From the IMG/VR virus record IMGVR_UViG_3300017917_003822, positions 62,001 through 126,000 of that record: 64,000 nt of DNA; one strand, given 5' to 3'. Source of the DNA: a virus. The notes beneath the pieces are model-generated. The model saw nothing but the letters and a program-made list of their open reading frames with translations, made no database searches and had not been told where the DNA came from. Within the stretch, counting starts at the first letter, position 1. Every line of letters begins with the position of its first letter. The position numbers and the translations under genes are program-made. Below are positions 47,473 through 64,000 of this stretch, piece after piece.

Positions 47473-50205
47473 ATGGCATTTACTACTACATCCAAATTTG
47501 TACAGATTACTCCATACCTTTTGATGGAGTATATGTATGCTGATGAACCAACACCGGAAACACACTTTGTTAATAGTGGAGGGGTTACCGTGGGGTATAA
47601 TAAATTGATAAATGGATATAGAAGTAATACAGTCCAAATTTTCAATAGAAATTCCGATTATCCCACTACACATAATACAACCGAGAATAACGTGGTTAGA
47701 ATAGGTGAGTCATCTTTTGTGACACTTGATTCCAATCTGATAGTTCCATTTAATGATTACTCTGATGAGCTAACTGATACTATAAACTTACCAATAGTTT
47801 TTCCGTCTAATTTGCTGGTTGTTTATGATACTGTTAGATATCACATAAGAGCTGGATATAATCTAAACAATCTTGATGGCTTGATTTTAACTGTCGAGTA
47901 TCAAGATCAAAATTTAGAATACGTTACAGCTTCTCAAATTCTATTAAAGAAAGGAACTGAGCAAGAGTACAATTTAAATCCAAATCCAGTTACGATCGGA
48001 GCAAATATCTATGATAAGTACTTTGAGATAAAGCTTCCTAACTTGAAGGATATGAACGATAAGTATTTAGCTGCTTCGTCCGCTTTTAAACCAGAAACAC
48101 TTGCTTCGTTAATTAGTTCGAGTGGAAATGGATTTATTTACGGATCCCCACTAAGAGTAACTGCTTGGCAGGTTCAAAATACTGTAGATTTTAACGGCTA
48201 CGAGAGATATAATTGTGCCGAAATAGCTACACTTTCTCTAGAGCAGGAGGATCCTTTTTCTAATATAGGTGCTACCATCAAGGAATCCGACAGGGGTCAA
48301 TTTTTTGAATATTATGCAACTGATAACGAGGGATTTATAGAGGATTTTATACTTTTTCAAAATTCGATAGGAAATGGGTATTATATAAGTCACCAGATAG
48401 AAGTACTAGAACAAATAGGGGCAGCTCTTATACAAACCTCAGGTTTCCAGTCTATACAAACGACTGCATACGATCTTCCTAATTACTATAGACCTATTGT
48501 TAGAAACGCAGCTGTTGCTGCTAGTTTTACCCTTAGATACACGATGTCTCTGATTAATAGCGTTAATCAAAGTCGAATAATTAGAATATCTACATACAGC
48601 TCGGTTAACCCTAGTCAGTGGGGAACTAATATAACTCCGATACAGCTAAGTACATTCCCGCAAGTTCAGAAGATCTATAACAGAGTTTATTCACAACCTG
48701 GTATTACTGTTGGCGGCGGAACAACAGTAGCACCTAAGGAAATTGTTAAATACACGAACGTTTTTATTAATCAAAATTATGTTACGTCCACAGTAAATAA
48801 TTTGACATTTACTGATAATAGTCTGAATATAAATTCAGGAGCTGAACAAACAACGGCTTTTGGAACCGGAAAAATGAACATCACAATTTCACCATTCGAC
48901 AATTACTACAAGTTTAAATTTATTAAAAGTGGTCCTTCAGCAGATCCAGTTCCGATTGATTTAAGTGCTTCTGGTAATTTTAATATCTCCTTTGTTGATA
49001 ATGTTGGTAACAAAATACAGGTTCCCGCACTGGAGGATAGAAATCTAGCAAATCCATCAACTGGAGAATTAGCTTTTAAACTTGATGAATCCATTTCAAC
49101 CAAGGTTCTTCAGCTAAGCGACAGAAGATTTTTTATTACAAACGGAACATCCATAAATAATGCTCAATCCGGAGTTGCTGCAAAAGAGGTGGTTTCAGTT
49201 GATGCAGGTGTTACTGATAATGTGGTTGAAAAGAGAATTGAATCTGTCATCGCAAATAGAAGAAATGAAGCTATGGCTATCAGCGGAGCCAATAACTATA
49301 TAAATATTCCAGCATCCAATATACTTACACCAGTAAATAATGCTAATTCTGTCATGTATTGGGGGTATTGGAAAAAACCAGGAGAGGATGATATTATTGT
49401 TGGTGCTACAGCAGCAGCTCCAGTTATAACTCCGACTAGTGGTGTTGGTGTTGTTGGAGCTGTAGAGGAACCTGCTCCTGTTCCTATAATTAAAAATGTA
49501 AAACCGAGAACTTCGGGTTCTGGTAAATTCTTGATTGGTTCCGCAACTGCGAACACCACTGAGACATTAACTGGAAGTGCATTGATATCAGCTCTAAGTG
49601 CTGAAATTGCTGGATATAAAGCTACTGGATGGCAGGATCAGACCATTATAAATTACTTCATGGTTCCTGGTAAAGCTGGATATATTAAATATCCTGGACT
49701 AACCAAACAACAGTTTATCCAGGCAGCTACTGGTATATTAGCACCGGCGACTCTAACTAGATTTGGTAGAACAAATAATGGCGGTGGCGGATGTCCAACT
49801 CCAGATATGAGGATCTTAACATCAGATGGTGATTATATTAAGGCTGGTGATATTAAAGTAGGAACTAGTGTTCATACGGTCCATGAAAAAACTGGAGAAT
49901 TTGGTGACTATAGAGTTTCTTATGTGGGTAGAATGATCCAGCCTATATTAAGAGTCAGCATAGATGGAAAATCTATAACAGTTTCAGATTCCCATAAATT
50001 TTTAACTGAGAATGGTGAATATGTTACAATCTCTAACATAACTGAGGGCACTTTAATTAAAACCATTAACGGATTAGCAAAACTTGAAAGTAAGCAGAGA
50101 ATAGGTGAGGGAGAGGTTATTAAAATAGAGGTTGAAAATGCACACACTTACGTTCTGGAGGGAGTTATCTCACATAACATTAAAGCTGCTTCCTTAGTAG
50201 AATAA
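47473..50205 (+). CDS. Virion protein with C-terminal Hint domain
   Basis: A 910-residue protein. Residues about 1-560 are beta-type structure with an N-terminal segment FVQITPYLLMEYMYADEP. Residues 560-770 include Ala/Pro-rich linkers and a helical piece (TGSALISALSAEIAGYKATG). A 137-residue Hint domain begins at Cys-774 after GGGG and shares most positions with that of the fibre paralogue at 44169 (both begin CPTPDM, both end ENAHTYVLEGVISHN). Asn-902 is followed by IKAASLVE. The protein has no collagen stalk and no common N-terminal module, so only the Hint part is shared, indicating domain transfer between two structural genes. Cleavage would free a mature protein of about 773 residues. 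It is probably a tail or fibre component. Confidence 0.6.
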   Translation: MAFTTTSKFVQITPYLLMEYMYADEPTPETHFVNSGGVTVGYNKLINGYRSNTVQIFNRNSDYPTTHNTTENNVVRIGESSFVTLDSNLIVPFNDYSDELTDTINLPIVFPSNLLVVYDTVRYHIRAGYNLNNLDGLILTVEYQDQNLEYVTASQILLKKGTEQEYNLNPNPVTIGANIYDKYFEIKLPNLKDMNDKYLAASSAFKPETLASLISSSGNGFIYGSPLRVTAWQVQNTVDFNGYERYNCAEIATLSLEQEDPFSNIGATIKESDRGQFFEYYATDNEGFIEDFILFQNSIGNGYYISHQIEVLEQIGAALIQTSGFQSIQTTAYDLPNYYRPIVRNAAVAASFTLRYTMSLINSVNQSRIIRISTYSSVNPSQWGTNITPIQLSTFPQVQKIYNRVYSQPGITVGGGTTVAPKEIVKYTNVFINQNYVTSTVNNLTFTDNSLNINSGAEQTTAFGTGKMNITISPFDNYYKFKFIKSGPSADPVPIDLSASGNFNISFVDNVGNKIQVPALEDRNLANPSTGELAFKLDESISTKVLQLSDRRFFITNGTSINNAQSGVAAKEVVSVDAGVTDNVVEKRIESVIANRRNEAMAISGANNYINIPASNILTPVNNANSVMYWGYWKKPGEDDIIVGATAAAPVITPTSGVGVVGAVEEPAPVPIIKNVKPRTSGSGKFLIGSATANTTETLTGSALISALSAEIAGYKATGWQDQTIINYFMVPGKAGYIKYPGLTKQQFIQAATGILAPATLTRFGRTNNGGGGCPTPDMRILTSDGDYIKAGDIKVGTSVHTVHEKTGEFGDYRVSYVGRMIQPILRVSIDGKSITVSDSHKFLTENGEYVTISNITEGTLIKTINGLAKLESKQRIGEGEVIKIEVENAHTYVLEGVISHNIKAASLVE
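49792..50202 (+). other. Hint (hedgehog/intein) autoprocessing domain, copy 2
   Basis: Residues 774-910. Cys-774 follows a flexible GGGG hinge, well placed for cleavage. The block-B-like motif is VSDSHKFLT, with the T/S-x-x-H form, and the terminal motif is ISHN at 899-902. The following Ile excludes standard splicing. Confidence 0.75.
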
Positions 50206-50795: not shown

Positions 50796-51026
50796 ATGAA
50801 AAAATTTACAGACCTAAAACAATTAAATGAAATGAAATACGGTCAGCCACTTTATAGTGAAAAAGACCACATGAAAAACCTTTTGATCGCTGCATCAGGT
50901 AATGATCAGAGAGTTTTAAATGACATCGTGAATTGTTTAACCGATGCACAGATGAAGCAGTGCTATGATAAGCTTTCTAAAGCTTATGGTTACACTGGTA
51001 GTGTGGGCCAAAAAGTATCAGCATAA
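50796..51026 (+). CDS. Small protein with F..L..LNE N-terminal tag
   Basis: A 76-residue helical protein. It starts MKKFTDLKQLNEMKYGQ, which resembles the N-terminal tags at 56764, 57291 and 60315 (aromatic, two or more polar, hydrophobic, polar, N-E). The rest (NLLIAASGNDQRVLNDIVNC; DAQMKQCYDKLSKAYGYTG) forms about three helices. No family is recognised. The tag resembles capsid-targeting sequences of T4 internal proteins, so this may be a small virion cargo protein. A regulatory DNA-metabolism protein is equally possible because the resolvase gene follows after 30 bases. Confidence 0.5.
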   Translation: MKKFTDLKQLNEMKYGQPLYSEKDHMKNLLIAASGNDQRVLNDIVNCLTDAQMKQCYDKLSKAYGYTGSVGQKVSA

Positions 51027-51056
51027 ATAAAGTCTAACCATTTAATCTAATTTTTA

Positions 51057-51764
51057 ATGAATTTAGTCGGCATAGACTTTTCTATAAACTCACCAGCATT
51101 TTGTTGTTTAAAGGATGGTAAATACACTTGGGGCTCTGTGACAAGATCTGATAGATCTTCGGAATCACTTTTGAAAAATTCAAAAAAACCATACTTTATA
51201 TTGGAACAAGATGACAATTTTGTTCTAAAGTTCGTAGATAAAAAAGATTTACCCGATGACTATTCGGGAAGGGAGAGAGCTAAAATTGGTTACTTCCTTG
51301 AAATAGTTAATGCTCTTTGGGATTCTATAATTGAAGTGATGGGGCACGATCCGTTCCATGTTGCCATGGAGGGTTTAAGCTTCTCGTCAAATGGAAATGC
51401 ACTTATTGATATTTCGATGGCAACTGGACTACTTAGGGAAAGAATAATTTCCGAGGTGGGTTCAGATTCTTTTCATGTATTTTCTCCAACCACCATTAAA
51501 AAATATGCGGTAAAGGGAAATGCAAAAAAGGATGAATTGTATCATGCTCTTTATAATTTTAAAGAAGATGAAACAAATTTGGAACATTTTGGTAAAATAT
51601 TAGAAACAAACAAAGAGGAGTGGATTACCCCAAGTAAGGTGGTAAATAAACCGATCGATGATATTGTGGACGCAACTTGGATTAATTTATATTTAAAGAA
51701 AGAATTAGGAGAATTTTATGGAATTAAAGGAAATCTTGAAGGAACATCTAAATCAGGCCTCTGA
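51057..51764 (+). CDS. RuvC-like Holliday junction resolvase
   Basis: A 235-residue protein with the RNase-H-like resolvase pattern. LVGIDFSINSPAF at 3-15 places Asp-7 in the first strand. HVAMEGLSFSSNG at 101-113 places Glu-105 in the fourth-strand position. A Lys/Asp-rich helix (GNAKKDEL) follows the VFSPTTIKKYAV strand-helix, and KPIDDIVDATWINLYL at 199-214 gives the closing D-x-x-D helix. These acidic residues hold two metal ions for cutting branched DNA. In a T4-like phage the enzyme would resolve recombination branches before packaging, the job of gp49 (a different fold) in T4. The coding end overlaps gmhA by 47 bases. Confidence 0.65.
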   Translation: MNLVGIDFSINSPAFCCLKDGKYTWGSVTRSDRSSESLLKNSKKPYFILEQDDNFVLKFVDKKDLPDDYSGRERAKIGYFLEIVNALWDSIIEVMGHDPFHVAMEGLSFSSNGNALIDISMATGLLRERIISEVGSDSFHVFSPTTIKKYAVKGNAKKDELYHALYNFKEDETNLEHFGKILETNKEEWITPSKVVNKPIDDIVDATWINLYLKKELGEFYGIKGNLEGTSKSGL

Positions 51765-52320
51765 CATTTTAAATGACTTCATTAACAACGACGAGTATCT
51801 AAGCTCGGTAGAGGAGGCTGCTCAGACTATAATCACAGCACTACAAAACGGTAATAAAATAATATCAGCAGGTAATGGCGGATCTATGTGTGACGCTATG
51901 CACTTTGCGGAAGAACTATCTGGCAGATGGAGGGAAGACAGAAAACCTCTGGCTGCCATTTCTGTATCAGATCCCTCCCATATAACTTGCGTTGGTAACG
52001 ATTACGGATTTGACCAGATTTTTTCCAGATATCTAGATGCTGTTGGGAACGAAGGTGATGTATTTTTTGGTATAACGACCTCAGGTAATTCTAATAATAT
52101 CACCCGAGCGCTGGTTACTGCCAAGCGTAAAGGTATGAGAACTGTCATACTCACATCAGACAGGCCTGAGAGCGACGTACGATTAAAATTTAATCATCTT
52201 ATTGATAATACCATACTAACACCAAGAAACAAATATGCGGACCGTACGCAAGAACTACATATCAAAATAATACATTCCCTGATTGATATGATAGAGCGAA
52301 AATTGGGATTGAAAAATTAA
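51718..52320 (+). CDS. gmhA: Sedoheptulose 7-phosphate isomerase (GmhA)
   Basis: A 200-residue SIS-fold enzyme, near the length of cellular GmhA (about 192). It converts sedoheptulose 7-phosphate to D-glycero-D-manno-heptose 7-phosphate, the first step of ADP-heptose synthesis. The match is strong: SAGNGGSMCDAMHFAEELSG at 50-69 (phosphate loop and Glu-65), VGNDYGFDQIFSRY at 92-105, GITTSGNSNNI at 118-128 (second phosphate site), and ADRTQELHIKIIHSLI with the Gln and His residues used in catalysis. The start at 51718 is needed because the N-terminal helices align with cellular enzymes and no later Met is suitable; it overlaps the resolvase gene by 47 bases. No other heptose-pathway gene is in the window. 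It may feed a phage or host glycan, or a modified nucleotide. Confidence 0.85.
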   Translation: MELKEILKEHLNQASDILNDFINNDEYLSSVEEAAQTIITALQNGNKIISAGNGGSMCDAMHFAEELSGRWREDRKPLAAISVSDPSHITCVGNDYGFDQIFSRYLDAVGNEGDVFFGITTSGNSNNITRALVTAKRKGMRTVILTSDRPESDVRLKFNHLIDNTILTPRNKYADRTQELHIKIIHSLIDMIERKLGLKN

Positions 52321-52380
52321 AGTTAAAAAAGAAACAAAAAGAAAACAAAAAGTAAAAATTAAAATTAAAAAAACAAAAAC

Positions 52381-53352
52381 ATGAGTAATTTAGACATCTT
52401 TAATCTAGACGCAGAAGCTTTCGTAACGAAAACAGCACAACAAGGCGAAAAAGACCTTGAATTTTACAAACCATATCCTGAAGATGGGAAGGATGGAGTT
52501 TACAAATCTTTAATCAGATTCGTACCGAATCCGGTAGATCCAGCTAAATCTAAAGTCCACAAATACTACGTGTATTTGAATGATCCGGTTAGCGGAAATG
52601 GATTTTCAGTAGACTGTCCGTCCACTGTAGGTAAGAAATCGGTTTTAAAGGATTTATTCTGGAAACTTAAGAATTCACATTCTGCAGCAGATCAGGAATT
52701 ATCTAAGAAATTTTCCAGAAAAGAGGATTTCTATTCATTAATTCAAGTTGTACAGGACAAGAACAAGCCTGAACTTGAAGGAAAAATTATGATCTTCAAA
52801 TTTGGTAAGAAAATAAATGACATGATCGAGGCACAATTACAGCCAGAATATGGTGACCCATGTAATCCTTTTGATCTTTTCGAAGGTAGAGAATTTGCAG
52901 TAAGCGTTAGAAAAGTTGGTGAGTGGAACAACTATGATCTTTGTTCATTCGTAGGTGAAAAGACTCCAATTAAAGTTAATGGGGTTCCTATGAAAAAGAC
53001 TCAGGAGGATATGAAAACGGTTCTTGATTATCTGAATGAGGGTCCTAAAAACCTAACAAGTTTCGACTATAAGGATTGGGATGATGAAATGACTGATAAA
53101 GTTATGAATGTAATCAGAAACACAGTTCCTGAACAAAGAGTGATCAATGAAATCATGGGTGGTGTGGCTTCTTCTAAATCAGCTCCATCTCCAGTAGCAA
53201 AGGAAACTTCTTCATCTGATATCTATAACGAGGTTTCTAATACTAAGGTTTCTGGACATACTGAAAGAGTAGAATCTCCAGTACAACAAGCTCCTAGTTC
53301 TTCTTCAACAAGTTCTCCGAATTCATTAGAGGATTTGTACGCTGATCTTTAA
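52381..53352 (+). CDS. 32: Single-stranded DNA-binding protein, gp32-like
   Basis: A 323-residue protein. KPYPEDGKDGVYKSLIRFVPN at 30-50 and KYYVYLNDPVSGNGFSVDCP match the start of the gp32-type core in T4-like phages. FYSLIQVVQDKNKPELEGKI continues the OB fold, and the phrase DPCNPFDLFEGREFAVSVRK is typical of gp32 relatives (N-P-F-D-x-x-x-G). The Cys/His zinc site of T4 gp32 is not evident. After residue 260 a Ser/Pro/Thr linker leads to an acidic tail (LEDLYADL), the protein-partner hook of such SSBs. It lies behind an extremely A-rich 60-base leader without the GATATATA motif and ends in a strong terminator, so it is probably a separate, strongly expressed unit. It coats ssDNA in replication and recombination. 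Confidence 0.75.
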   Translation: MSNLDIFNLDAEAFVTKTAQQGEKDLEFYKPYPEDGKDGVYKSLIRFVPNPVDPAKSKVHKYYVYLNDPVSGNGFSVDCPSTVGKKSVLKDLFWKLKNSHSAADQELSKKFSRKEDFYSLIQVVQDKNKPELEGKIMIFKFGKKINDMIEAQLQPEYGDPCNPFDLFEGREFAVSVRKVGEWNNYDLCSFVGEKTPIKVNGVPMKKTQEDMKTVLDYLNEGPKNLTSFDYKDWDDEMTDKVMNVIRNTVPEQRVINEIMGGVASSKSAPSPVAKETSSSDIYNEVSNTKVSGHTERVESPVQQAPSSSSTSSPNSLEDLYADL

Positions 53353-53369
53353 TAGATAATAAACTTAAT

Positions 53370-53402
53370 GGGGCGGTTCCTTAAGAAGGACTGCCCCTTT
53401 TT
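53370..53402 (+). terminator. Rho-independent terminator after the SSB gene
   Basis: A GC-rich hairpin starting GGGGCGG at 53370 pairs with the arm ending GCCCC at 53397 (about 11-12 pairs with one bulge and a G-T pair), followed by TTTTT. It lies 17 bases behind the SSB stop codon and just before the primase start. Confidence 0.85.
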
Positions 53403-53408
53403 ATTAAT

Positions 53409-54473
53409 ATGGAACTAGAAAAAATAGAGGATACAATAAGAACAATTCTTTCAAGAGAATTTAGCGATAATCCAGCTAAGCAAATCATATACAAAGCTGG
53501 GAATAGACTAAACTTCTCGTGTCCATATTGTGGGGATTCTCATGACGCTAGGAAGAAGAGAGGAAATTTCTACCTTGATACTCTGGGTTATAAGTGCTAT
53601 AATGGCGGATGTGGAATATTCAAGGATGTAATCACTTTTTTTAAGGATTTTTCCGTTTATGCCAAATTGAATGGAGACGAAAGAACCGAGATTAGAGGAA
53701 TCCTGGACGAGGGCAGAAATAAAAGGAGAAGCTCTTATGGAAAAATTGATATTAGCTATTTTTTTGATAATGACATAAGCGATGTTTTAATTGATAGATC
53801 CCAATTAATGGAAAAGCTTGGCCTGAGGGAAGTATACGGGTCTTCTATCCAGAGATATATCACCAGAAGAAACCAAAAATTGGATAAGAAATTTGCCTGG
53901 GATCCTAAGAGGGAAAAATTATTTCTGTTTAATCTAACTCCCGATGATAAAATATTGGGATTGCAGGTTAGAAATATGAATTCAATAAAGGGTTCCATGA
54001 AATATCTTACATACAAGCTTAGTGGTATATACGAGAAGCTTTTAAATGTGACAGATCCGCAACTACTGGAAAAAGCAAAATCGGTCGATCCAATATCGCA
54101 TGTTTTTGGTATAGGATCTTTGGATTTTTCCTCTGATATAACAGTATTTGAGGGTCCTATGGATTCTTGGTTTTGGAATAATTCCGTTGGGTTATGTTCT
54201 CTTGAAAATAAGTTCCCATTCGACGTGGATAATGTTAGATATTGGTATGATTGGGATAAGTCGGGGATAGAGAAATCAATGGATCTTTTAAGTAGAGGTG
54301 AAACGGTTTTCAATTGGGGTAAGTTTCTGGAAGAGAATGGAATATCAAAGAATAGGAAATGGGATTTAAATGATCTGGTGGTTCATTTGAGATCAACCGG
54401 AAAAAAGATTAAGAGATTGGATAATTATTTCACTAACGATGTACTCGACCTTAGATATTTTATTAACGAATAA
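53409..54473 (+). CDS. 61: DNA primase, gp61-like
   Basis: A 354-residue protein, close to T4 gp61 (342). The N-terminal zinc ribbon has Cys-38, Cys-41 (CPYCGDSHD), Cys-63 and Cys-68 (KCYNGGC). The TOPRIM core shows ITVFEGPMDSWF at 244-255 (Glu-248, Asp-252) and RYWYDWDKSG at 277-286 (D-x-D). Between them, KLFLFNLTPDDKILGLQVRN fits the strand leading into the catalytic core. It makes RNA primers for lagging-strand synthesis with a gp41-type helicase, which is not in this window. The start lies 7 bases behind the SSB terminator, so transcription must begin by read-through or in the terminator loop region. Confidence 0.8.
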   Translation: MELEKIEDTIRTILSREFSDNPAKQIIYKAGNRLNFSCPYCGDSHDARKKRGNFYLDTLGYKCYNGGCGIFKDVITFFKDFSVYAKLNGDERTEIRGILDEGRNKRRSSYGKIDISYFFDNDISDVLIDRSQLMEKLGLREVYGSSIQRYITRRNQKLDKKFAWDPKREKLFLFNLTPDDKILGLQVRNMNSIKGSMKYLTYKLSGIYEKLLNVTDPQLLEKAKSVDPISHVFGIGSLDFSSDITVFEGPMDSWFWNNSVGLCSLENKFPFDVDNVRYWYDWDKSGIEKSMDLLSRGETVFNWGKFLEENGISKNRKWDLNDLVVHLRSTGKKIKRLDNYFTNDVLDLRYFINE

Positions 54474-54480
54474 GAGAGAA

Positions 54481-54717
54481 ATGGAATCCGATTTAATGAA
54501 CGAGTGGGAATCTGAATTGGAAAAGTTGGGAAAACCTAAACTTAAATTTCCTTTGAAGGTCATAGAGTCAGATCTGGATAAGATTGATTTAAATTTCAAG
54601 GACCCCTCAGTATCGGAACCAAGGAAAAAAGAGATCAAAAATCCACAGGAGGTTAAAGTTGTAGATCTCGCAAAGAAAAGAAACACTAATAAAAAAGATA
54701 AAACAAAACTATTTTAA
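54481..54717 (+). CDS. Small charged protein between primase and UvsY
   Basis: A 78-residue, highly charged protein (start MESDLMNEWESELEKLGKPK, end KKRNTNKKDKTKLF). An ATG at 54439 would extend the frame, but it would overlap the primase by 35 bases, so the ATG 8 bases after the primase stop is chosen. The stop codon touches the next start (54718). No family is recognised. Acidic start and basic end suggest a disordered adaptor protein, perhaps for the recombination machinery. Confidence 0.5.
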   Translation: MESDLMNEWESELEKLGKPKLKFPLKVIESDLDKIDLNFKDPSVSEPRKKEIKNPQEVKVVDLAKKRNTNKKDKTKLF

Positions 54718-55164
54718 ATGTCAACAGGAGAAAGAGCAGATTTTAATAAGATATTCGAACAAGAAAGATTCGAATGGAAGGAGAAGATACAGACACTATC
54801 ACTCCAGATGAAAGATATAAAAACATTGGCTAAAGCTCAGGTTGATCTTTTTAGTCAGCGTCAGGTTCTTTTGGAGTACAGTTATAAACTTGCTTCGATT
54901 ATATCCAAATTAAGCTCTAAATACAGATCGGAAAAAGCTAAGAAGCTTAAGGATTATTCGGAGAATAATGATGTTAGATACGGATCCAATGAGAAAACAG
55001 TTTTAATTGAGGGTGACTTAACCGAGATATCCGAGAAGATAGAATTGGTAGAAAGTCATAGAAAATTCATAGATCAGACTATACAAACTGTCGACCATAT
55101 GCTATATGGGGTGAAAAGTAGAATAGCATTAGAGGATTATTTAAGAGGATCCACAGTAAAATAA
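54718..55164 (+). CDS. uvsY: UvsY-like recombination mediator
   Basis: A 148-residue helical protein, near T4 UvsY (137). IFEQERFEWKEKIQTLSLQM and the helix with LLEYSYKLASIISKLSSKYR are followed by EKAKKLKDYSENNDVRYGSNE, then EISEKIELVESHRKFIDQTI and the ending GVKSRIALEDYLRG. The middle K-x-x-x-L-x-D-Y and the late K-S-R-x-A-x-x-D motif agree with the UvsY plan (T4: A-I-K-S-R...I-x-D-M). UvsY loads the UvsX recombinase on gp32-covered ssDNA. Its place directly before the UvsW-like helicase supports the call. Sequence alone would give moderate confidence. Confidence 0.6.
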   Translation: MSTGERADFNKIFEQERFEWKEKIQTLSLQMKDIKTLAKAQVDLFSQRQVLLEYSYKLASIISKLSSKYRSEKAKKLKDYSENNDVRYGSNEKTVLIEGDLTEISEKIELVESHRKFIDQTIQTVDHMLYGVKSRIALEDYLRGSTVK

Positions 55165-55176
55165 ATATGTAATTAG

Positions 55177-56727
55177 ATGTTAAAATTTCAAGTTTCCGAA
55201 GATCAGCAGTGGATGATTTTGGTAGAATCTCCGGATGAGGTTGAGAAAAAACAAATTGATATTTCTCTAACTAAAAAAATCCACAACTTTTATTTTCATC
55301 CTCTCGTAAAAAAGAAGATATGGGATGGAAGTATCTGCTTTATAGAGAAGAAGGGTGGATTTTGGAAAGTTCCAATAGGTCTTTGGAGAGAGCTATTACA
55401 GATAGGGGAAGAGTACAACATAGAAATAGAAATAGTTGGCCTGGATAAGATAATTCTAAAAAGTCCAACTCTGGAGGAGTTTACTGAGTGGGTCAACGAT
55501 TTTTTTAAGGACGGTATTCTGGGTGATCCTAATAAAAAACCTAGAGATTATCAAATAGAAACAGCATGGAAGTTGATAAAGTATCGATATTCTGTTTCTG
55601 AAGTTGCAACATCTTCAGGTAAGACCTTAATCTCATTTATGATATTTGCATATTTGAAATCTAAGGGTCTCATAAGAAAATTTTTGATGATTGTACCCAA
55701 TACAAACTTAGTTTTCCAGGGCAGTGAGGATTTTATAGATTATGGACTGGATAGCCTGGGTGTTAAAATACAACAAATTGGAGGGGGAAGTAAGCTAAGA
55801 GATGGATGTGATATTATTATGGGTACCTTCCAGTCTCTTGTAAAACAAGGACCTGAATTTTTTGAGGAGATAGATTGTGTTTTCGTCGATGAGGCACACC
55901 ACACCAACAGCATGTCGATTAAAAAAATAGTTGCTCAGTGTATGCACTCCAAATGGAGATTTGGTTTAACTGGAACTCTGACTAAAAGAGGAACTGCTGA
56001 TTATTTAACAGTTCAGCAATTTCTTGGACCTCTAGTTGTTGAAATCCCGCCAAGTTTCCTTTTCGATAACAACTATGCAACTCCTGTTTCGATAAAGGTT
56101 GTTATAATGGATTGGTTGGAACCTGAATATAAGGAGAAGCTAGCAGAACTAAAACAAAACAACAAAGGCTCTGATAATAAGATAGAGGGTAACGAATTTT
56201 ATAACATAGAGAGAAAACTTGTTATCGAAAGCAAAAAAAGACTAAATTACGTTGTTGATTTTATAAATAAAACATCCAAGAATTCACTGGTTCTTTTCCA
56301 GTCAGTTAAGGATGAATACGGAAAGCAAATATGGAATTCATTAAGAGAAAAAAGCTCAGACAAGGAAGTTTTTTATGTTGACGGTGACACATCGGAAGCT
56401 CTGAGAGAGGAATATAAAACAAGGATGTCTAGTGGATCAAACAAAATACTTATAGCAACATACGGTACATTTTCTACCGGTATATCCATAAACAATCTGC
56501 ATAATATTTTTCTTGTTGAATCTTATAAGAGTGAAGTCCTAATTAAACAGAGTCTTGGTAGAGGTATGCGTAAAATGGACGGAAAGGAAAGGGTAAATGT
56601 AATAGATTTTGTTGATGACTTTAGTACGAAGGGATATCAAAATTATCTGATGCAACATGGTGATGCAAGAATACAGATCTATAGAAAGGAGTGTTTTGAT
56701 TATAAGATATTTAATGTCAAACTTTAA
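55177..56727 (+). CDS. uvsW: UvsW-like SF2 DNA helicase
   Basis: A 516-residue SF2 helicase, close to T4 UvsW (503). An N-terminal domain of about 110 residues (HPLVKKKIWDGSICFIEKKG is typical of UvsW) leads to motif Q RDYQ at 123-126. Motif I is ATSSGKT at 144-150, motif II VDEAHH at 237-242 and motif III LTGT at 264-267. The C-terminal motifs include FSTGISI and KQSLGRGMRK (motif VI). All ATPase parts appear intact. UvsW unwinds R-loops and branched DNA, shutting down origin-dependent replication late in T4 infection. It forms one unit with the UvsY-like gene, 12 bases upstream. Confidence 0.85.
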   Translation: MLKFQVSEDQQWMILVESPDEVEKKQIDISLTKKIHNFYFHPLVKKKIWDGSICFIEKKGGFWKVPIGLWRELLQIGEEYNIEIEIVGLDKIILKSPTLEEFTEWVNDFFKDGILGDPNKKPRDYQIETAWKLIKYRYSVSEVATSSGKTLISFMIFAYLKSKGLIRKFLMIVPNTNLVFQGSEDFIDYGLDSLGVKIQQIGGGSKLRDGCDIIMGTFQSLVKQGPEFFEEIDCVFVDEAHHTNSMSIKKIVAQCMHSKWRFGLTGTLTKRGTADYLTVQQFLGPLVVEIPPSFLFDNNYATPVSIKVVIMDWLEPEYKEKLAELKQNNKGSDNKIEGNEFYNIERKLVIESKKRLNYVVDFINKTSKNSLVLFQSVKDEYGKQIWNSLREKSSDKEVFYVDGDTSEALREEYKTRMSSGSNKILIATYGTFSTGISINNLHNIFLVESYKSEVLIKQSLGRGMRKMDGKERVNVIDFVDDFSTKGYQNYLMQHGDARIQIYRKECFDYKIFNVKL

Positions 56728-56737
56728 TTTTAATAAG

Positions 56738-56746
56738 GATATATAG
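56738..56746 (+). promoter_or_regulatory. Candidate late promoter, GATATATAG
   Basis: GATATATAG in the 36-base gap after uvsW, ending 17 bases before the start of the 175-residue gene. It would drive the tag-bearing genes and the ligase-NMNAT gene late, apart from the replication genes on its left. Confidence 0.5.
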
Positions 56747-56763
56747 AAAAATATGTTTTTATT

Positions 56764-57291
56764 ATGAATATTAAATCTTTCGATGATTTTATAGCCGAAA
56801 ATGAAGTTTATGGTGCTACAGGAAAAACTAAGTTCAGTTCATGGCTTAGAAACGTGAATGCCAGAGTTAAAGACTCGATGGGTGATTCATACTATTCTAG
56901 ATATTACGACGATCATAATGATCCTCATAAGACATCCAAAACTTTGGCTCAACTAATACCTGGAGCTATCCGACTTGTTACTGGTGCTGCTGCGGCAGTT
57001 TCTGATTTTTTCTTTAAAGGAGATAATAAAGAAAGCTTTTCTAAATTATCACGAGAAGATCTAAAATTAAGAAAAAAGGAAGTTGTTGATAAATGGGAGA
57101 GTGAAAATTTGGCATCGAAGAAAGTAACTGAGGAAGATGCTGAAAGATTCTATAAATCTGGAATATTGAGAGGTAAAAAATATTTCGGTAATGAGTATAA
57201 CCCAGCAAATCCTAAGAATAAGGACGAGGAAATGTATACCGATTATATTAATGATGTGATGGAGAGATACCACAAAAAATTAAAATCGTAA
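56764..57291 (+). CDS. Tagged protein of unknown function, possible internal virion protein
   Basis: A 175-residue protein starting MNIKSFDDFIAENEVYG. The first 14 residues resemble the capsid-targeting sequence of T4 internal proteins (pattern M-K-x-x-x-x-F-I-A-E). The rest is basic, with KTSKTLAQLIPGAIRLV, an Ala-rich helix (TGAAAAVSDFFFKG) and a Lys/Glu-rich C-terminal half (EDLKLRKKEVVDKWESE). No enzyme motif. The stop codon overlaps the next gene's start (ATG at 57291), so the two are coupled. Packaging into the head and ejection with DNA is inferred from the tag only. Confidence 0.5.
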   Translation: MNIKSFDDFIAENEVYGATGKTKFSSWLRNVNARVKDSMGDSYYSRYYDDHNDPHKTSKTLAQLIPGAIRLVTGAAAAVSDFFFKGDNKESFSKLSREDLKLRKKEVVDKWESENLASKKVTEEDAERFYKSGILRGKKYFGNEYNPANPKNKDEEMYTDYINDVMERYHKKLKS

Positions 57292-58226
57292 TGAATTTCG
57301 GTAAGGCTTTAAGATTTTCTGAATTTGTTCAATTGAATGAGGGTGGGGCTGCTATAAAAAGTTCTAGAAGAATCCGCGAAGACGAATTTCCGGGTACTCT
57401 TGACAACATAAAACAAAATCTTTTCCCTATTCTATCTATAGATCCGGTCAAACAAAACGATCAATATATCATAATAGGAAGCATAGGTAAAAAGAAAAAT
57501 CCGGATGATACTTCAGGGGATCTTGATTTGGGTTATGATAGTTCATGGTTTTCCAGAACCCATAATATCCCAGTAAAGGAGTCATCGTCATTTGTTTATA
57601 ATTTACTCTCTGAAAAGTTACCGGAGGTTCTTGGATTTAATCCCGAGATCAATTTTATGAAGGGATTAAATATAGTTAGTGTTGGTTGGCCTATTAAGGG
57701 GGATGTTAATAATGGGATAGTACAGTTAGATCTTATTCCAATATCAAGTATGGATTGGGCGGAGTTCATATATTATTCACCCAATTATAAAATAGGGGAA
57801 AGTAAATATAAATCTGCTCATAGAAACTGGCTTTTAGCTGCTATATTGGCATCAAGGAAAGAAATAATAGGCAATGATGATAATGGTGAAATTATGGACT
57901 ATAACTCTCCTGTATTGATTCTAAGTGATGGGTTATTTTGGCACACCAAATCTTATCGTGGAAAATTAAAAGATAGGCTTAAAAATCCAAAAAAAGTAGA
58001 GGGTAGCGAGAGATTTATTACTAGAGATCCACAGGAATTTATCGATTTTGCACTAGGAACTGGTTACAGTTTGAATGACGTCAAAACTTTTGAATCTCTA
58101 TTAAATATTATAAATTCTCCGGATTTTGAATTGAAAGAAAAATTACCAGAGATTAAGAGTAAATTTATAGAGTATCTAACTAGAGCTAATTTGGAGATAC
58201 CGGCCGAAATAAATCAAATACCTTAA
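57291..58226 (+). CDS. Pol-beta-type nucleotidyltransferase-like protein
   Basis: A 311-residue protein. An N-terminal tag (RFSEFVQLNEGG at 8-19) resembles those of its neighbours. The strand-loop YIIIGSIGKKKN at 59-70 is followed by SGDLDLGYD at 75-83 and VQLDLIPIS at 144-152. This gives the nucleotidyltransferase pattern G-S...D-x-D...D, with Gly-63, Ser-64, Asp-77, Asp-79 and Asp-147. Enzymes with this fold add nucleotides to RNA, proteins or small molecules. The helical C-terminal half (LNDVKTFESLLNIINSPDFE) has no recognised domain. The gene lies 26 bases before the ligase-NMNAT fusion and overlaps the 175-residue gene by one base. Joint action on RNA ends or NAD is possible but not shown. 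Confidence 0.5.
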   Translation: MNFGKALRFSEFVQLNEGGAAIKSSRRIREDEFPGTLDNIKQNLFPILSIDPVKQNDQYIIIGSIGKKKNPDDTSGDLDLGYDSSWFSRTHNIPVKESSSFVYNLLSEKLPEVLGFNPEINFMKGLNIVSVGWPIKGDVNNGIVQLDLIPISSMDWAEFIYYSPNYKIGESKYKSAHRNWLLAAILASRKEIIGNDDNGEIMDYNSPVLILSDGLFWHTKSYRGKLKDRLKNPKKVEGSERFITRDPQEFIDFALGTGYSLNDVKTFESLLNIINSPDFELKEKLPEIKSKFIEYLTRANLEIPAEINQIP

Positions 58227-58252
58227 AGTATAAAACAGTAAAGAATTTAGAC

Positions 58253-60313
58253 ATGTCAGGAATAAGTCATCTATATGATATCTATAATAAGAAGGGTAAA
58301 GAGTTTATTGATAATCTCTTCAATTCTTATGTGACCGTTAATGAAAAAATGGACGGATCAGCCTTTGTTTTCGAAAGAGATTTAGAAACTGGTAGATTTA
58401 TCTTTTATAAAAGGGACCAAAGAAACCCAATTACGTTGGTGGATAGGACCTTAATGAAATACTATGAAATTCCTATTCAGTACATAGAATCTTTACCTCC
58501 TCATATTATAAAGGAGATCCCGAGAGGTTGGAAATTTGGATTAGAGTATTTTGCAAATTTAAAGCCTGTTGAGATAGCATATGATAGATTACCAAAAAAT
58601 AATCTGATCTTATCTTACGTTCATCCAAAAGACGAGAACGGAAAACAAACAACGATACAAAACAAGGAAAAACTGGACACTTGGGCAGATTTGATTGGTG
58701 TGGAAAGACCTCCGATAGTTTTTCAGGGGTATCTTTCGGACGAACAGAAAGACAAGATTTTAGACTTTTTAAGAACCCCTTTTGATCAACTTGTCACAGA
58801 ATACAGAACAAAAAGTTTTGTTAGGTACATTATAGGTGTTCTGAACCCAGAAGCCAAGAATAGTGCTTTAAATAAAGATCTGGATAAACCCATTGAGGGA
58901 ATAGTATTTAGATTTGGTGAGGAGAATAACGAATCTGAGCCTATTCTTTCTAAAATGGTCGATCCGGTCTTTACTGAAATGGCTAAGGAAAAGTACAAGA
59001 AGAAAACTGAGGAAAAACCTAGTGATTTCTTGGGGATAACCATACTGGATGTGATGAATTTTATACTGGAGAGAGGAGTGGAAAGCTTCAATATCAGTGG
59101 AGACAGCGACGATGAGAGATACATCTCGTTTATATCTGACGTATTTTCAAAATTCCTAGATGAGTATGGGTACAAATATAAGGGTGCTGACTTTCAGGAA
59201 CCTGAATATCTTAAAAAGGATGAATTTAGATTAAATAGACCACTAATAAAAGACAAGAGAGTCCTTAGTTATCTTGAATCTGACGATTCCTACGAATCTT
59301 TGTTTAAGTTAATATTAAATTCCTTCAGAAAAATTAAAAAAAGAGCTGGTGGAATAATAACATCAGGAATAATAGATCAGTTTAATTTACTGGTTAAAGA
59401 TATACAGGGAGCAGTTTCTAGTAAATCTACACCAAAAATACAGGAATCACAGGTTCCTTCATTTCTGGACTTTAAGAAAAATAATCTCTCACTTAGAAAT
59501 ATTGACTATACAACATCAGAGAGTGAGGAATCTGATAAATCTGGTGATGAATTTGATCATTTCTATTCATATAACGAATTTATCTCTGCCTTAGAAACTC
59601 TTGACACTCAGGAAAAACCGAGCGAGATAGTGACGGAGGTCGAGGAGAATTTGGAAGAAAATAAAAAAAGTGAACTTCAGCCTGTTAATCTTCTCGTTGG
59701 TAGATTCCAGCCCTTCCATAACGGTCACCTCAAGATGATTAAAAAGATGGAGGAGGAAAATGAACTTCCTAGCATTATAGCGGTAGTCCATCCGGGTCAT
59801 AATAAATCTGGCAAAACACCATTTGACGTGGATCTAGTTTCTAAATATATGGAGACACTTGTTAGAGATAACCCAGGAAAGATATTGGGATATTTTATTG
59901 TCAATCGAGGGTTGCTTGGTGTAATATACGGAAAGGCCAAAGAACTTGGATACCTTGTTAAAGCTATTGCTGCTGGGGATGATCGTGTTGACGATTATAA
60001 TAAACAAGTGGAATATCTTAAAAAAGCTGGTGGCGATTTTCCGGAGGACATTAAAATAATCCAAACACAAAGATCAGGTAGCGGAACTGATGTGAGAGAT
60101 AAAATCGAAAGTGAAGATTTTGTTGCTTTTAAAAAAATGGTTCCCCCTGCTATATCCTCGTTTTATGAACAGCTGGTTTCTGCACAGAAGGGAAGAAGCA
60201 TCAAGGAATCCTCTGAGACTATCTATTACCTAAATGAATTCGGTGACGAGAAAACTCTGGAAGAAGTTCAGAACGAAATAAAAGAAAAAGAAATTAAAAA
60301 TAAGGAAGAATAA
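58253..60313 (+). CDS. Fusion: KxDG ligase-like domain plus NMNAT-like domain
   Basis: A 686-residue two-enzyme protein. N-terminal domain: VNEKMDGSAFVF at 29-40 is motif I of covalent nucleotidyltransferases (Lys-32 as the nucleotide-bearing residue). KFGLEYF at 94-100 fits motif III, KPIEGIVFRF at 212-221 motif IV, and SKMVDPVF around 233-240 motif V. This pattern is that of RNA ligases of the Rnl2 type. A helical part (260-400) and an acidic linker (415-475) follow. C-terminal domain: LVGRFQPFHNGHLKMI at 481-496 carries HxGH, and SGSGTDVRD at 608-616 the S-x-x-x-x-R motif, as in nicotinamide mononucleotide adenylyltransferases. The last 40 residues are charged. Single activities are secure at motif level; the substrate and whether they cooperate are unknown. 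No frameshift joins them. Confidence 0.7.
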   Translation: MSGISHLYDIYNKKGKEFIDNLFNSYVTVNEKMDGSAFVFERDLETGRFIFYKRDQRNPITLVDRTLMKYYEIPIQYIESLPPHIIKEIPRGWKFGLEYFANLKPVEIAYDRLPKNNLILSYVHPKDENGKQTTIQNKEKLDTWADLIGVERPPIVFQGYLSDEQKDKILDFLRTPFDQLVTEYRTKSFVRYIIGVLNPEAKNSALNKDLDKPIEGIVFRFGEENNESEPILSKMVDPVFTEMAKEKYKKKTEEKPSDFLGITILDVMNFILERGVESFNISGDSDDERYISFISDVFSKFLDEYGYKYKGADFQEPEYLKKDEFRLNRPLIKDKRVLSYLESDDSYESLFKLILNSFRKIKKRAGGIITSGIIDQFNLLVKDIQGAVSSKSTPKIQESQVPSFLDFKKNNLSLRNIDYTTSESEESDKSGDEFDHFYSYNEFISALETLDTQEKPSEIVTEVEENLEENKKSELQPVNLLVGRFQPFHNGHLKMIKKMEEENELPSIIAVVHPGHNKSGKTPFDVDLVSKYMETLVRDNPGKILGYFIVNRGLLGVIYGKAKELGYLVKAIAAGDDRVDDYNKQVEYLKKAGGDFPEDIKIIQTQRSGSGTDVRDKIESEDFVAFKKMVPPAISSFYEQLVSAQKGRSIKESSETIYYLNEFGDEKTLEEVQNEIKEKEIKNKEE

Positions 60314-60314
60314 G

Positions 60315-60857
60315 ATGGAAAAAATTATAACATTTGGACAATTCATAAATAACATGAATGAATCAGATGGTTTTGGTACTTCACCCTTTCTGCTAGAAAA
60401 AGTTAGTGACATATATCATTACTTTTTTAATCTGGATCAGGAAAAATCTGAGGATCAAATGGGATATCACTTAATTATAGGAAAATATTCAGACCAGGAA
60501 GTCATAGAAGGTCCAAAAAATTCATACTGTGTACTAACTATAAACCAGATTTCGCCTGAAGTTATAGATGATATAGCAGTTAAAAAAGAGGACGTTCCGC
60601 AAACTAACAAGGAAAAATTTAAGATGGGCGGAAATGATATATCTAGACTTATGGAATATGTTTTCAAATGTGTTACTAACTATCTGGAAGCAAATCCCAA
60701 GGTTACTAGAATATATGATGAAATGCAGGAAAATCTAGTTTTAGAGGGTAAAGGTGAATATATCGAGTATATGAAATCCATCGCAATTTCACAACTTGGT
60801 GGGAATTGGTCGATCCAACAGGGGGCATCCAAAATTTCAGTAATAATTAGCAGATAA
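60315..60857 (+). CDS. Tagged protein of unknown function
   Basis: A 180-residue protein starting MEKIITFGQFINNMNESDG, with the F-x-x-F-I-x-x-x-N-E tag. The body is mixed alpha/beta (GYHLIIGKYSDQEVIEG; YCVLTINQIS; SRLMEYVFKCVTNYLE), ending with strands (SIQQGASKISVIIS). No family is recognised. It begins 1 base after the ligase-NMNAT stop codon, so it is translated with it and may be a partner. A 53-base gap with an exact TATAAATA follows. Confidence 0.5.
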   Translation: MEKIITFGQFINNMNESDGFGTSPFLLEKVSDIYHYFFNLDQEKSEDQMGYHLIIGKYSDQEVIEGPKNSYCVLTINQISPEVIDDIAVKKEDVPQTNKEKFKMGGNDISRLMEYVFKCVTNYLEANPKVTRIYDEMQENLVLEGKGEYIEYMKSIAISQLGGNWSIQQGASKISVIISR

Positions 60858-62020: not shown

Positions 62021-64000
62021 ATGGCTCAATTTCCAATCAATCCCCGAATAGGGCAAGCTTTTCTAGCAGATTCCAAAATATATGTTTGGAGTGGAACTCA
62101 GTGGGTTGCGGCACAGGTTGGAGGGACAGGAGACGGATCATCAGGAACCTCTGGAACTAGTGGAGTTGATGGAAATTTTTATGGATCCTCTGGAACCTCT
62201 GGAACCTCCGGGGTTAATGGATCCAGTGGAACAAGTGGTACACCGGGATCTTCTGGAATATCAGGATCTTTCGGAACAAGTGGATCTAGTGGAACATCAG
62301 GATCTACCGGAAGTCCAGGATCTTCTGGGTCTAGTGGATCTTCTGGTGCTAATGGTTCGTCTGGAACATCAGGAATTAATGGATCCAGTGGAACAAGTGG
62401 CTCGAATGGATCATCAGGAACTTCTGGATCTAGTGGAAGCAGCGGAACTTCAGGCACTAGAGGATCTAGTGGAACTTCGGGTTCTTCGGGAACATCTGGT
62501 GCTAATGGTTCTTCAGGAACATCTGGATCTAATGGATCTTCGGGTGTCAGTGGAATTAATGGTATAGATGGAACTTCTGGATCTAGTGGAACTTCAGGTA
62601 CTAGAGGATCTAGTGGAACTTCTGGTTCTTCAGGAACATCTGGTGCTAATGGTTCTTCAGGAACCTCTGGTGCTAACGGTTCATCGGGTTCATCGGGAGT
62701 TAGTGGAATTAATGGTGTTGATGGAACCTCAGGATCTAGTGGAAGTAGCGGAACTTCAGGTACTGGCGGATCGAGTGGATCTTCGGGTTCTTCCGGAACA
62801 TCTGGCTCTAATGGTTCTTCAGGAACATCTGGTGCTAATGGTTCATCGGGATCTTCGGGTGTCAGTGGAATTAATGGTGTTGATGGAACTTCAGGATCTA
62901 GCGGTACTTCTGGTGTTAATGGCTCTAGTGGAACATCCGGTTCATCAGGATCGTCAGGAACCAGTGGAATCACCGGATCGTCGGGATCTAGTGGATCTTC
63001 GGGTGTCAGTGGAATTAATGGTGTTGATGGAACTTCAGGATCTAGCGGTACTTCTGGTGTTAATGGATCTAGTGGTACTTCGGGATCTGGTGGATCGAGT
63101 GGAACTTCAGGATCTGGTGGATCTAGTGGAACTTCGGGATCTAGAGGATCTTCAGGAACCAGTGGGACAAGTGGATCCTCAGGGTCTAGTGGAGATTCTG
63201 GCTCTAGTGGAACATCCGGTTCATCAGGATCGTCAGGAACCAGTGGAATCACTGGATCGTCGGGATCTAGTGGATCGTCGGGTGTCAGTGGAGTTAATGG
63301 TGTTGATGGAACCTCAGGATCTAGTGGTACCTCTGGTGTTAATGGATCTAGTGGTACTTCGGGATCTGGTGGATCGAGTGGAACTTCAGGATCTAGAGGA
63401 TCTTCGGGAACCAGTGGAACCAGTGGATCTTCAGGATCTAGTGGAGCTTCTGGATCTAGTGGTACCTCCGGTTCTAGTGGTTTATCAGGATCTAGTGGAA
63501 CTTCGGGATCTAGAGGATCTTCGGGAACCAGTGGAACCAGTGGATCTTCAGGATCTAGTGGATCTTCAGGAGTCAGCGGGGTTAACGGTGTTGATGGTTC
63601 TTCCGGATCCAGTGGAACATCCGGAAGTAACGGAACTCCGGGTTCTTCAGGTTCTTCAGGTTCTTCAGGTTCTTCAGGTTCTTCAGGTTCTTCAGGAACT
63701 TCGGGATCTAGAGGATCCAGTGGAACATCTGGTATAAACGGTTCTTCCGGCTCTTCGGGAACGTCAGGGTCCAGTGGAACATCAGGGACAAGAGGAACTA
63801 GCGGAACATCTGGTATAAGTGGAAACGACGCATCTAATTCAGGGAGATGGGAATATTCAAATTCGATTGCACCGACCAATCCAGGCACCAGCAGATTCTG
63901 TACAAATAGTTCTTCTCTAGGATCTGTTAATGTATTAAGTATTAGTATTTACGACATAAACTCGGTGGATTACACTAAATGGTTTCAAGCATCTGACACA
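62021..64000 (+). CDS. Giant collagen-like fibre protein (3' end beyond window)
   Basis: The frame from ATG 62021 stays open for 660 codons to the window edge, so the gene is partial. Residues 1-36 (AQFPINPRIGQAFLADSKIY with V-W-S-G-T-Q-W-V) form a small strand domain of the type found at fibre bases. From residue 39 to about 601 the protein is almost pure G-x-y triplets, about 185 of them, mainly GSS, GTS, GVS, GAN, GVN and GTR, with one break near residues 51-54 (GNFY). Pro is rare, unlike animal collagen; Ser and Thr fill its place. A non-repetitive domain starts at about 602 (NDASNSGRWEYSNS) and continues off the edge. Trimeric stalk and distal receptor-binding tip are inferred. The Thr/Ser residues are possible sugar acceptors. 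Confidence 0.75.
   Translation, partial: MAQFPINPRIGQAFLADSKIYVWSGTQWVAAQVGGTGDGSSGTSGTSGVDGNFYGSSGTSGTSGVNGSSGTSGTPGSSGISGSFGTSGSSGTSGSTGSPGSSGSSGSSGANGSSGTSGINGSSGTSGSNGSSGTSGSSGSSGTSGTRGSSGTSGSSGTSGANGSSGTSGSNGSSGVSGINGIDGTSGSSGTSGTRGSSGTSGSSGTSGANGSSGTSGANGSSGSSGVSGINGVDGTSGSSGSSGTSGTGGSSGSSGSSGTSGSNGSSGTSGANGSSGSSGVSGINGVDGTSGSSGTSGVNGSSGTSGSSGSSGTSGITGSSGSSGSSGVSGINGVDGTSGSSGTSGVNGSSGTSGSGGSSGTSGSGGSSGTSGSRGSSGTSGTSGSSGSSGDSGSSGTSGSSGSSGTSGITGSSGSSGSSGVSGVNGVDGTSGSSGTSGVNGSSGTSGSGGSSGTSGSRGSSGTSGTSGSSGSSGASGSSGTSGSSGLSGSSGTSGSRGSSGTSGTSGSSGSSGSSGVSGVNGVDGSSGSSGTSGSNGTPGSSGSSGSSGSSGSSGSSGTSGSRGSSGTSGINGSSGSSGTSGSSGTSGTRGTSGTSGISGNDASNSGRWEYSNSIAPTNPGTSRFCTNSSSLGSVNVLSISIYDINSVDYTKWFQASDT
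62921..63115 (+). repeat. 195-bp direct repeat, copy 1 (copy 2 at 63200-63394)
   Basis: Both copies begin GGCTCTAGTGGAACATCCGG and run in parallel for 195 bases with about six differences. The offset is 279 bases, a multiple of nine, so the reading frame and the triplet phase are kept. It is a recent internal duplication in the collagen-like gene. Confidence 0.8.
63200..63394 (+). repeat. 195-bp direct repeat, copy 2 (copy 1 at 62921-63115)
   Basis: Second copy of the segment described at 62921. Differences are mostly silent third-base changes; one changes Ile to Val in the G-I-N/G-V-N triplet. After the repeat the copies diverge from GGTGG to AGAGG. Confidence 0.8.
63641..63694 (+). repeat. 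Six perfect tandem copies of GGTTCTTCA
   Basis: Six identical 9-base units encoding Gly-Ser-Ser. Elsewhere in the gene neighbouring triplets use different codons, so this perfect array is young and likely to gain or lose units by slippage, each step changing the stalk by one triplet. Confidence 0.9.

Follow-up and report, generated by a model that had tools for sequence, protein, structure and literature searches.

A T4-type capsid-targeting tag is proposed for more than 20 proteins, predicted enzymes among them, of a giant-phage clade

Results

Genes in the window share a short N-terminal tag

We analysed a window of 64,000 bases (bases 62001-126000 of the 270,629-base virus record IMGVR_UViG_3300017917_003822; contig coordinates, prefixed C1, equal window coordinates plus 62000) in which several open reading frames (ORFs) begin with a common short sequence, here called the tag. 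An initial annotation of this DNA had named four such ORFs and likened their starts to the capsid-targeting sequence of bacteriophage T4; all four are present, at window positions 50796, 56764, 57291 and 60315, with a clear tag on the last three, a looser one on 50796, and bodies that, as had been noticed, are otherwise unrelated. The tag consists of an aromatic pair, F/Y-x-x-F/Y, a variable gap and then the triplet [I/L/V/M]-x-E. Relatives keep both parts while the stretch between them drifts in sequence and length, and tags of the giant-phage clade to which this genome belongs often read M-x-x-[I/L]-x-x-F-x-x-F-[I/L]-N-E, with Asn preceding Glu. The essential end of the tag is [I/L/V/M]-x-E rather than the NE behind which a cut had been suggested, and in ORF 56764 the position that fits this rule follows FIAE, not the subsequent NE.

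Orthologues were supplied by 21 related IMG/VR loci (59-82% identity to ORF 57291). The alignments, which include the window sequence, hold 15 members for the 57291 family, 11 for the 60315 family and 15 for the 56764 family; they omit the near-duplicate loci L008, L015, L018, L020, L021, L023 and L026, and that of 60315 further omits L016, where the ORF is fused, and loci whose contig ends before the gene. F6 and F9 are invariant in all 15 aligned members of the 56764 family, each of which matches the regular expression used for the tag, as are F9, F12 and E17 in the 57291 family (15/15) and F7, F10 and E16 in the 60315 family (11/11). The residue two before Glu in the 57291 family is L (10 members) or I (5), giving an L/I-x-E triplet throughout, and other tag families also have V or M there; orthologue tags end, for instance, LNFSGFSKIFE/GGAAIK, LSFNNFVILLE/GGAAIK, LSFSKFIILNE/GGAAIK and LNFSDFIFE/GGAAIK. 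Because the codon of the invariant Glu is split between GAA (8) and GAG (7), selection on the tag acts at the protein level. The single miss of the regular expression among 12 members of the 60315 family is L016, whose best ORF runs together with the gene upstream (L016:6420-8987, RNA ligase/cytidylyltransferase and 60315 orthologue in one 855-aa ORF) and, where the two meet, retains both the tag and its Met (MKRISNFNEFKIMSRDGINE/SDGFG). For ORF 50796, [I/L/V]NE is kept in 7/7 sequences (this phage and the six relatives searched) and the second aromatic position is L, A or I, leaving this family with the triplet and no aromatic pair. It lies 6 kb upstream of the 56764/57291 pair and adjoins a tail-tube-like gene (phrog_45).

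The tag is conserved more often than chance predicts

In 157.5 kb of the genome, the loose regular expression matched 17 (10%) of the 170 non-overlapping ORFs. Its background was 5.8% for internal windows (1630 of 28200), 5.0% for internal Met starts (28 of 560) and 3.3% for shuffled N-termini; a tighter expression matched 16 of the 170 ORFs against 53 of 2396 internal windows. Because raw motif counts alone were too weak, the test was moved to conservation. Among 44 families with at least five relatives, 14 had the motif in at least 80% of members, compared to 5.75% of 782 aligned internal windows (binomial, P = 1e-7); with more sequence, the comparison became 17 of 59 families with at least four relatives versus 68 of 1055 windows (Fisher, P = 4e-7). 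Four of these 17 motif-keeping families were judged to be chance.

In seven clade genomes, among them the present one, a DNA-level pattern for FxxF[hydrophobic]NE occurred 52 times and its reversed control 5 times. Upon inspection of the 31 matches with a readable locus, each site being counted once, 24 lay within 25 codons of the first start of an ORF of at least 45 aa, three lay further out with a nearer ATG (L060, L125 and L106), one was internal (L123) and three fell in no such ORF; about 25 of the 31 were judged to be N-terminal tags. Seven phage records outside the clade gave 18 matches versus 10 reversed (12 versus 4 in Lak-C1 and Lak-B6 alone), and 2 of the 18, but none of the 12 from Lak phages, passed the same limits of distance (25 codons) and ORF length (45 aa). 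One of those two, TFNSFVNE near the start of a 125-aa ORF of LR756500 (locus L134), could be a genuine tag of a remoter relative; this 462-kb uncultured phage is the closest named relative by capsid protein.

Several matches to the regular expression were set aside as chance: the N-terminus of the major capsid protein (YDTW..IIE), the SIS-domain ORF at window 51718, L031:12333, L030:2193 and the L106 match, which is a helix of a von Willebrand (vWA) domain. L112, one of the 24 sites scored as near a first start, was distrusted as a 59-aa ORF without ATG, and L098:11396 passes the expression and was left out of the tag count. L031:6344 (FEEFKKRAANVTE) is tag-like in appearance and has no relative among the loci compared.

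The head protease is fused to repeats of the tag's own motif

That a gp21-like protease should be encoded in the genome had been set beforehand as a test, and one was found: an S77 prohead protease at C1:46011-47960 (Peptidase_S77, E = 3e-8, over the cut-off; phrog_207 head maturation protease, 4e-37), whose gene immediately precedes that of the capsid protein. S77 proteases were also found in 9 of the 12 relatives' records searched, the three misses being contigs under 51 kb. The protease carries an N-terminal triplet (LNE in 6/7 genomes, LKE in one), and the capsid protein has HSLNE/SAGAY in 7/7; by T4 precedent, both triplets would be cut. Relatives of the capsid protein suggest a Bacteroidota host (23 of 34 records, the others being uncultured, Aeromonas or Sphingomonas).

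The remainder of the protease ORF holds 12-14 copies of [YF]..[YF][LIVM].E, mostly YSxYLAE, in 7/7 genomes, spaced 14 residues apart except for three single gaps of 28; shuffled versions held a mean of 0.11-0.16 copies and at most 3. Like FDDFIAE of 56764, each unit thus combines a cleavage triplet with an aromatic pair of the tag's spacing, and the repeat part presumably serves as a scaffold. Richness in cleavage triplets is also seen in core or scaffold proteins of T4 (gp22, 21 triplets versus 11 by shuffling), PTm1, Mosig and LR756500, in which aromatic-pair units number 0, 0, 1 and 3 (an ORF in LR756500), respectively; T4 gp67 and gp68 also have none.

Distant homologues begin where the cut is expected

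Distant homologues of 57291 (26-30% identity) are without the tag. In two Lak phages their first residues are MSGMAIKG, closely preceded by an in-frame stop, and in Sinorhizobium phage Phosso MGGAAFKD; both starts align with the GGAAIK expected after the cut in 57291. The annotated coding sequence in Agrobacterium phage Atu_ph07 starts MGGRAF, and an upstream TTG would add nine residues. For the tagged nucleotidyltransferase near the capsid gene (C1:42507), no F..F tag was seen by eye in homologues from two cyanophages, a Maribacter phage and one Lak phage, and relatives in two uncultured huge phages (L076 and L077) have tag-like starts that, by eye, are ambiguous.

The RimK-type protein is tagged here (FFSFLNE), in Pelagibacter phage Mosig (FKNYLEE) and in Methylophilales phage Melnitz (FSQFITE), and untagged in cyanophages S-RIM12 and S-CAM8. 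In Mosig this tag is the only convincing one of five matches to the regular expression among 185 ORFs. Phage YerA41 has a homologue annotated as structural; as a separate observation, a gene annotated as a mono-ADP-ribosylating toxin lies four genes behind it (L079:10812-11186).

Tagged proteins include predicted enzymes

The initial annotation's four ORFs are a small part of the set: by eye, about 23 tagged proteins were counted in the 169.6 of 270.6 kb of phage genome covered (Table 1), six of them near the capsid gene. One, at L060, is on the minus strand in a plus-strand region and is counted with less assurance. The densest group is a cargo-like cluster with the tags FDDFLNE, YNQFLNE, FEEFINE, YENFVNE, YEDF..VNE, FNSFINE, YENFLNE and YEDF..LNE; over an 11.6-kb stretch there, the regular expression matched 9 of 12 minus-strand ORFs, one of which is uncounted, versus 0 of 12 plus-strand ORFs. 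T4-like late promoters (TATAAATA) showed no clear association with tagged genes by eye.

Table 1 Tags and tagged genes in the window (W) and along the contig (C1)
Feature	Coordinates	Strand	Remarks
Loose tag MKKFTDLKQLNE, then MKYG	W:50796-50831	+	76-aa ORF 50796-51026; F and LNE, without second aromatic
Tag MNIKSFDDFIAE, then NE	W:56764-56799	+	175-aa ORF 56764-57291; predicted cut after IAE
Body of ORF 56764, no assigned function	W:56800-57291	+	Moderately hydrophobic stretch
Tag MNFGKALRFSEFVQLNE, then GG	W:57291-57341	+	311-aa ORF 57291-58226
Body of ORF 57291, likely Pol-beta-type nucleotidyltransferase	W:57342-58226	+	GSIGKK...SGDLD, later Asp in VQLDLI
Untagged RNA-ligase/cytidylyltransferase fusion	W:58253-60313	+	Between two tagged genes; PF01467, PF09414
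Tag MEKIITFGQFINNMNE, then SDG	W:60315-60362	+	180-aa ORF 60315-60857
Body of ORF 60315, no assigned function	W:60363-60857	+	One sub-cut-off Pfam match
Tagged nucleotidyltransferase	C1:42507		Near capsid gene
Five tagged ORFs	C1:49805, 50949, 51832, 56767, about 59071		Near capsid gene
Small tagged protein	about C1:132983	-	Less certain
Tagged adenylate kinase	C1:138700		
Tagged protein, no assigned function	C1:141341		
Tagged RimK-like ATP-grasp ligase	C1:150676		
Small protein	C1:152143		Single-Phe tag variant
Cargo-like cluster	C1:262348-270386	-	Eight tagged genes in 8 kb

Tagged bodies scoring over Pfam cut-offs comprise the adenylate kinase (3.6e-39), RimK (8e-34), NTP_transf_2 (PF01909, 2.9e-4) and an SLT transglycosylase (1.8e-6). 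In relatives, tags were found on an RNase_T exonuclease (3.9e-9), CHAP (3.9e-9 and 1.6e-8), SLT (1.1e-7) and Glucosaminidase (8.4e-8) proteins, as well as on a second Glucosaminidase below the cut-off and one protein with Tlde1 (1e-6) and YkuD (2e-4) matches just below it. The RNase_T/DnaQ-like exonuclease (L111:694-1539, minus strand) bears the tag MKNLSTFSQFLNE in a 434-kb relative. Most other tagged bodies matched no family.

Pfam and PHROG searches of the window ORFs (threshold E = 0.05) gave no match for 50796, 56764 or 57291, and 60315 had no Pfam or PHROG family above cut-off and matched nothing when compared by tblastn (E = 0.01) with the 'phages' collection; its structure model (mean predicted local distance difference test, pLDDT, 46) was unusable. 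Residues 61-79 of 56764 are moderately hydrophobic (Kyte-Doolittle mean 1.5). In the body of 57291, G63, S64, D77, D79 and D147 are invariant (15/15), in agreement with the Pol-beta nucleotidyltransferase signature of an hGS motif, D-x-D and a later Asp. Its structure model has low overall confidence (pLDDT 59), the best blocks reaching 96; with this model Foldseek returned 159 matches at E<=10 and none at E<=0.001, the top one (0.038) being a CoaE kinase, and about 43 of the best 50 of the 159 carry titles of Pol-beta-type nucleotidyltransferases. Searching the PDB with a sequence profile of 57291 gave 0 matches. On weak evidence, 57291 is regarded as a likely Pol-beta-type nucleotidyltransferase. 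The untagged ORF 58253 matches PF01467 over its cut-off (6e-6) and PF09414 below it (3e-4), and its family has no conserved tag (3 of 12 match the regular expression).

The tag resembles T4 targeting sequences

According to excerpts of a T4 review (PMC9026906), packaging requires no more than the first 10 residues of internal protein IPIII, substitutions affect targeting mainly at residues 4 and 7 and processing at residues 8 and 10, and gp21 cuts after L/I-X-E. The IPIII N-terminus, MKTYQEFIAE/A (T4 cut marks here being placed by that rule), has Y4, F7, I8 and E10; since residues 4/7 are Y/F and 8/10 are I/E, the tag presents the same aromatic pair and triplet, at a length too short to base a claim of common descent on. 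In IPI (MKTFKEFTSTTTPVSTITE/A), pair and triplet are split by a variable gap (FKEF...TITE), as in clade tags. As a positive control, the motif scan matched T4 IPI, IPII and IPIII; it found no match in gp67, gp68, gp21, gp22 or gp24, and its matches in gp20 and at the first residues of gp23 are probably fortuitous.

The system is thus like that of IPI, IPII and IPIII in having a 10-20-residue N-terminal tag on unrelated bodies, an aromatic pair at i and i+3, an [I/L]-x-E end and an S77 protease encoded in the same genome. It differs in scale (about 23 tagged proteins, where T4 has few), in allowing V and M in the triplet, in a protease fused to repeats of the tag's own motif, and in a cargo that includes metabolic, likely protein-modifying and cell-wall enzymes. 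Excerpts on the giant phages phiKZ and SPN3US (PMC5694885, PMC9026906) likewise describe a gp21-like protease that trims many head proteins after Glu, at S/A-x-E or A-x-E and with several propeptides of more than 100 residues, in contrast to the short tag and [I/L/V/M]-x-E here; in the excerpts, a gp22 counterpart was unconfirmed in 2017. T4 Alt, by the same review's excerpts (PMC9026906), is a protein-modifying enzyme that is head-packaged, gp21-trimmed and ejected; it is an ADP-ribosyltransferase, whereas nucleotidyltransferases and a RimK-type ligase occur here, and the comparison is one of function, not homology.

These excerpts also suggest that the tag lets T4-like phages package varied proteins (PMC9026906). 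By title, the 'capsid targeting sequence' literature deals mostly with T4 and T4 engineering, with others including P1, P22 and SPN3US, and we found no account of such a tag in this clade in the limited collection searched. As far as that literature shows, the new points are how widely a giant-phage clade uses the tag, which enzymes carry it, and that tag and protease repeats have one and the same motif.

Discussion

We propose, with a probability of roughly 0.87, that the tag is a T4-type capsid-targeting sequence of a giant-phage clade, by which more than 20 proteins would be docked, cut, packaged and ejected with the DNA. The head-packaging interpretation of the initial annotation is thereby supported: an aromatic pair and an L/I-x-E-like site as in IPIII occur on head-cluster genes and are absent from distant homologues, and the expected enzyme is present at the level of conserved domains and motifs, which bears out a predicted enzyme rather than a demonstrably active one. 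The tag, its conservation and modularity, the protease, the repeats and the enzyme domains are read from the sequences themselves; from these we infer docking, cutting, packaging and ejection (injection, in the annotation's words), together with the role of each enzyme in the host.

Mechanistically, the aromatic pair would attach a protein to the core of the prohead, probably through mimicry of the protease-fused scaffold's Y-x-x-Y repeat. With the prohead closed, the S77 protease would cut after the Glu of [I/L/V/M]-x-E, at the end of the tag as well as within the scaffold repeats, and the scaffold would be cleared, leaving cargo free in the head to be ejected with DNA. A bolder version, that the tag is a copy of one scaffold-repeat unit, so that any gene gaining it at its front would have its product enter the core as one more scaffold unit and be freed by the same protease, supplying an arsenal of at least 20 proteins at DNA entry, we advance tentatively, at somewhat short of even odds. 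If true, the arsenal would include enzymes able to alter host proteins or nucleotides (nucleotidyltransferases, RimK-type ligase and adenylate kinase) and several cell-wall-opening enzymes.

Several observations weigh against the proposed targeting role. Raw N-terminal counts exceed the internal-window background only 1.7- to 4.3-fold, and the strict DNA pattern is missing from clade genome G007, where the orthologues have looser tags. By eye, the head regions of Lak-B6, LR756500 and PTm1 have no clear tags despite related capsid proteins, and scaffold mimicry is not general because T4 gp22 is without aromatic-pair repeats. No virion proteomics for this phage or its clade was found in the literature searched. 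For YerA41 particles, excerpts of a report (PMC7354516) give 63 associated proteins by liquid chromatography-tandem mass spectrometry, with a 'ribosomal protein modification protein', taken to be the RimK-type homologue, marked as found. This lends weak support to packaging of RimK-type enzymes, because the homologue has an N-terminal extension without an F..F tag and because the particle list also has polymerases and topoisomerases (PMC7354516, excerpts), so that carry-over is possible.

The chief alternative is that the tagged proteins belong to the assembly core, bound to the scaffold and either acting in the head or digested there, instead of being injected effectors. The six tagged genes near the capsid gene would suit such a role, the more so as several of their bodies look lysine/glutamate-rich by eye and match no family or weak unknown ones, and the T4 core proteins gp67 and gp68 are cleaved into fragments (PMC9026906, excerpts). 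Adenylate kinase, a RimK-type ligase, nucleotidyltransferases, an exonuclease and cell-wall enzymes would nevertheless make poor scaffolds, and the T4 precedent is ejection of many internal proteins and of Alt (PMC9026906, excerpts); we regard a core role as unlikely for the set at large, and it may be true of some tagged proteins near the capsid gene. A different destination (tail, membrane or replication compartment) or a stability signal, with the T4 likeness convergent, is less probable still: the motif contains the T4 cleavage triplet and recurs in the protease-fused repeats, tags sit on genes near the capsid gene, the triplet is found in the capsid protein as well, and the tag is too short and polar for a membrane anchor, even if several kinds of cell-wall enzyme are tagged and such enzymes are often located in tails. 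Finally, short amphipathic N-terminal helices of Phe, Leu, Asn and Glu might arise by chance in an AT-rich genome, as the 3-6% background of the loose expression and some clearly fortuitous single matches illustrate. This we consider scarcely credible given the conservation controls, the 52 versus 5 pattern matches, the placement of 24/31 sites near a first start versus 2/18 outside the clade, and the absence of the tag from distant homologues.

Under the capsid-targeting interpretation, a sequence rule would predict which uncharacterised proteins travel inside the virions of a giant-phage clade, a matter normally settled only by proteomics. The rule points to candidate host-takeover enzymes (nucleotidyltransferases and the RimK-type ligase) that would be delivered before any phage gene expression, scaffold-repeat mimicry is proposed as the way in which the tag docks, and the tag offers a possible packaging address for phage-head engineering.

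Other features of the region

A SIS-domain gene (window 51718-52320, plus strand; PF13580, 1e-20; phrog_14703, 3e-60) lies between RuvC-like and gp32-like genes. The large ORF at window 47473-50205 (plus strand) appears by eye to have a Hint/intein-like domain over its last ~150 residues, starting GGCPTPDMRILTSDG and ending near VISHN. An ORF at window 4100-6427 (plus strand) contains a run of short repeats like VPGQDLGVPDRVYPxPxGDAY, and window 62082-63888 is repetitive DNA in which either strand has repetitive ORFs (minus strand, 569 aa), perhaps encoding a collagen-like protein.

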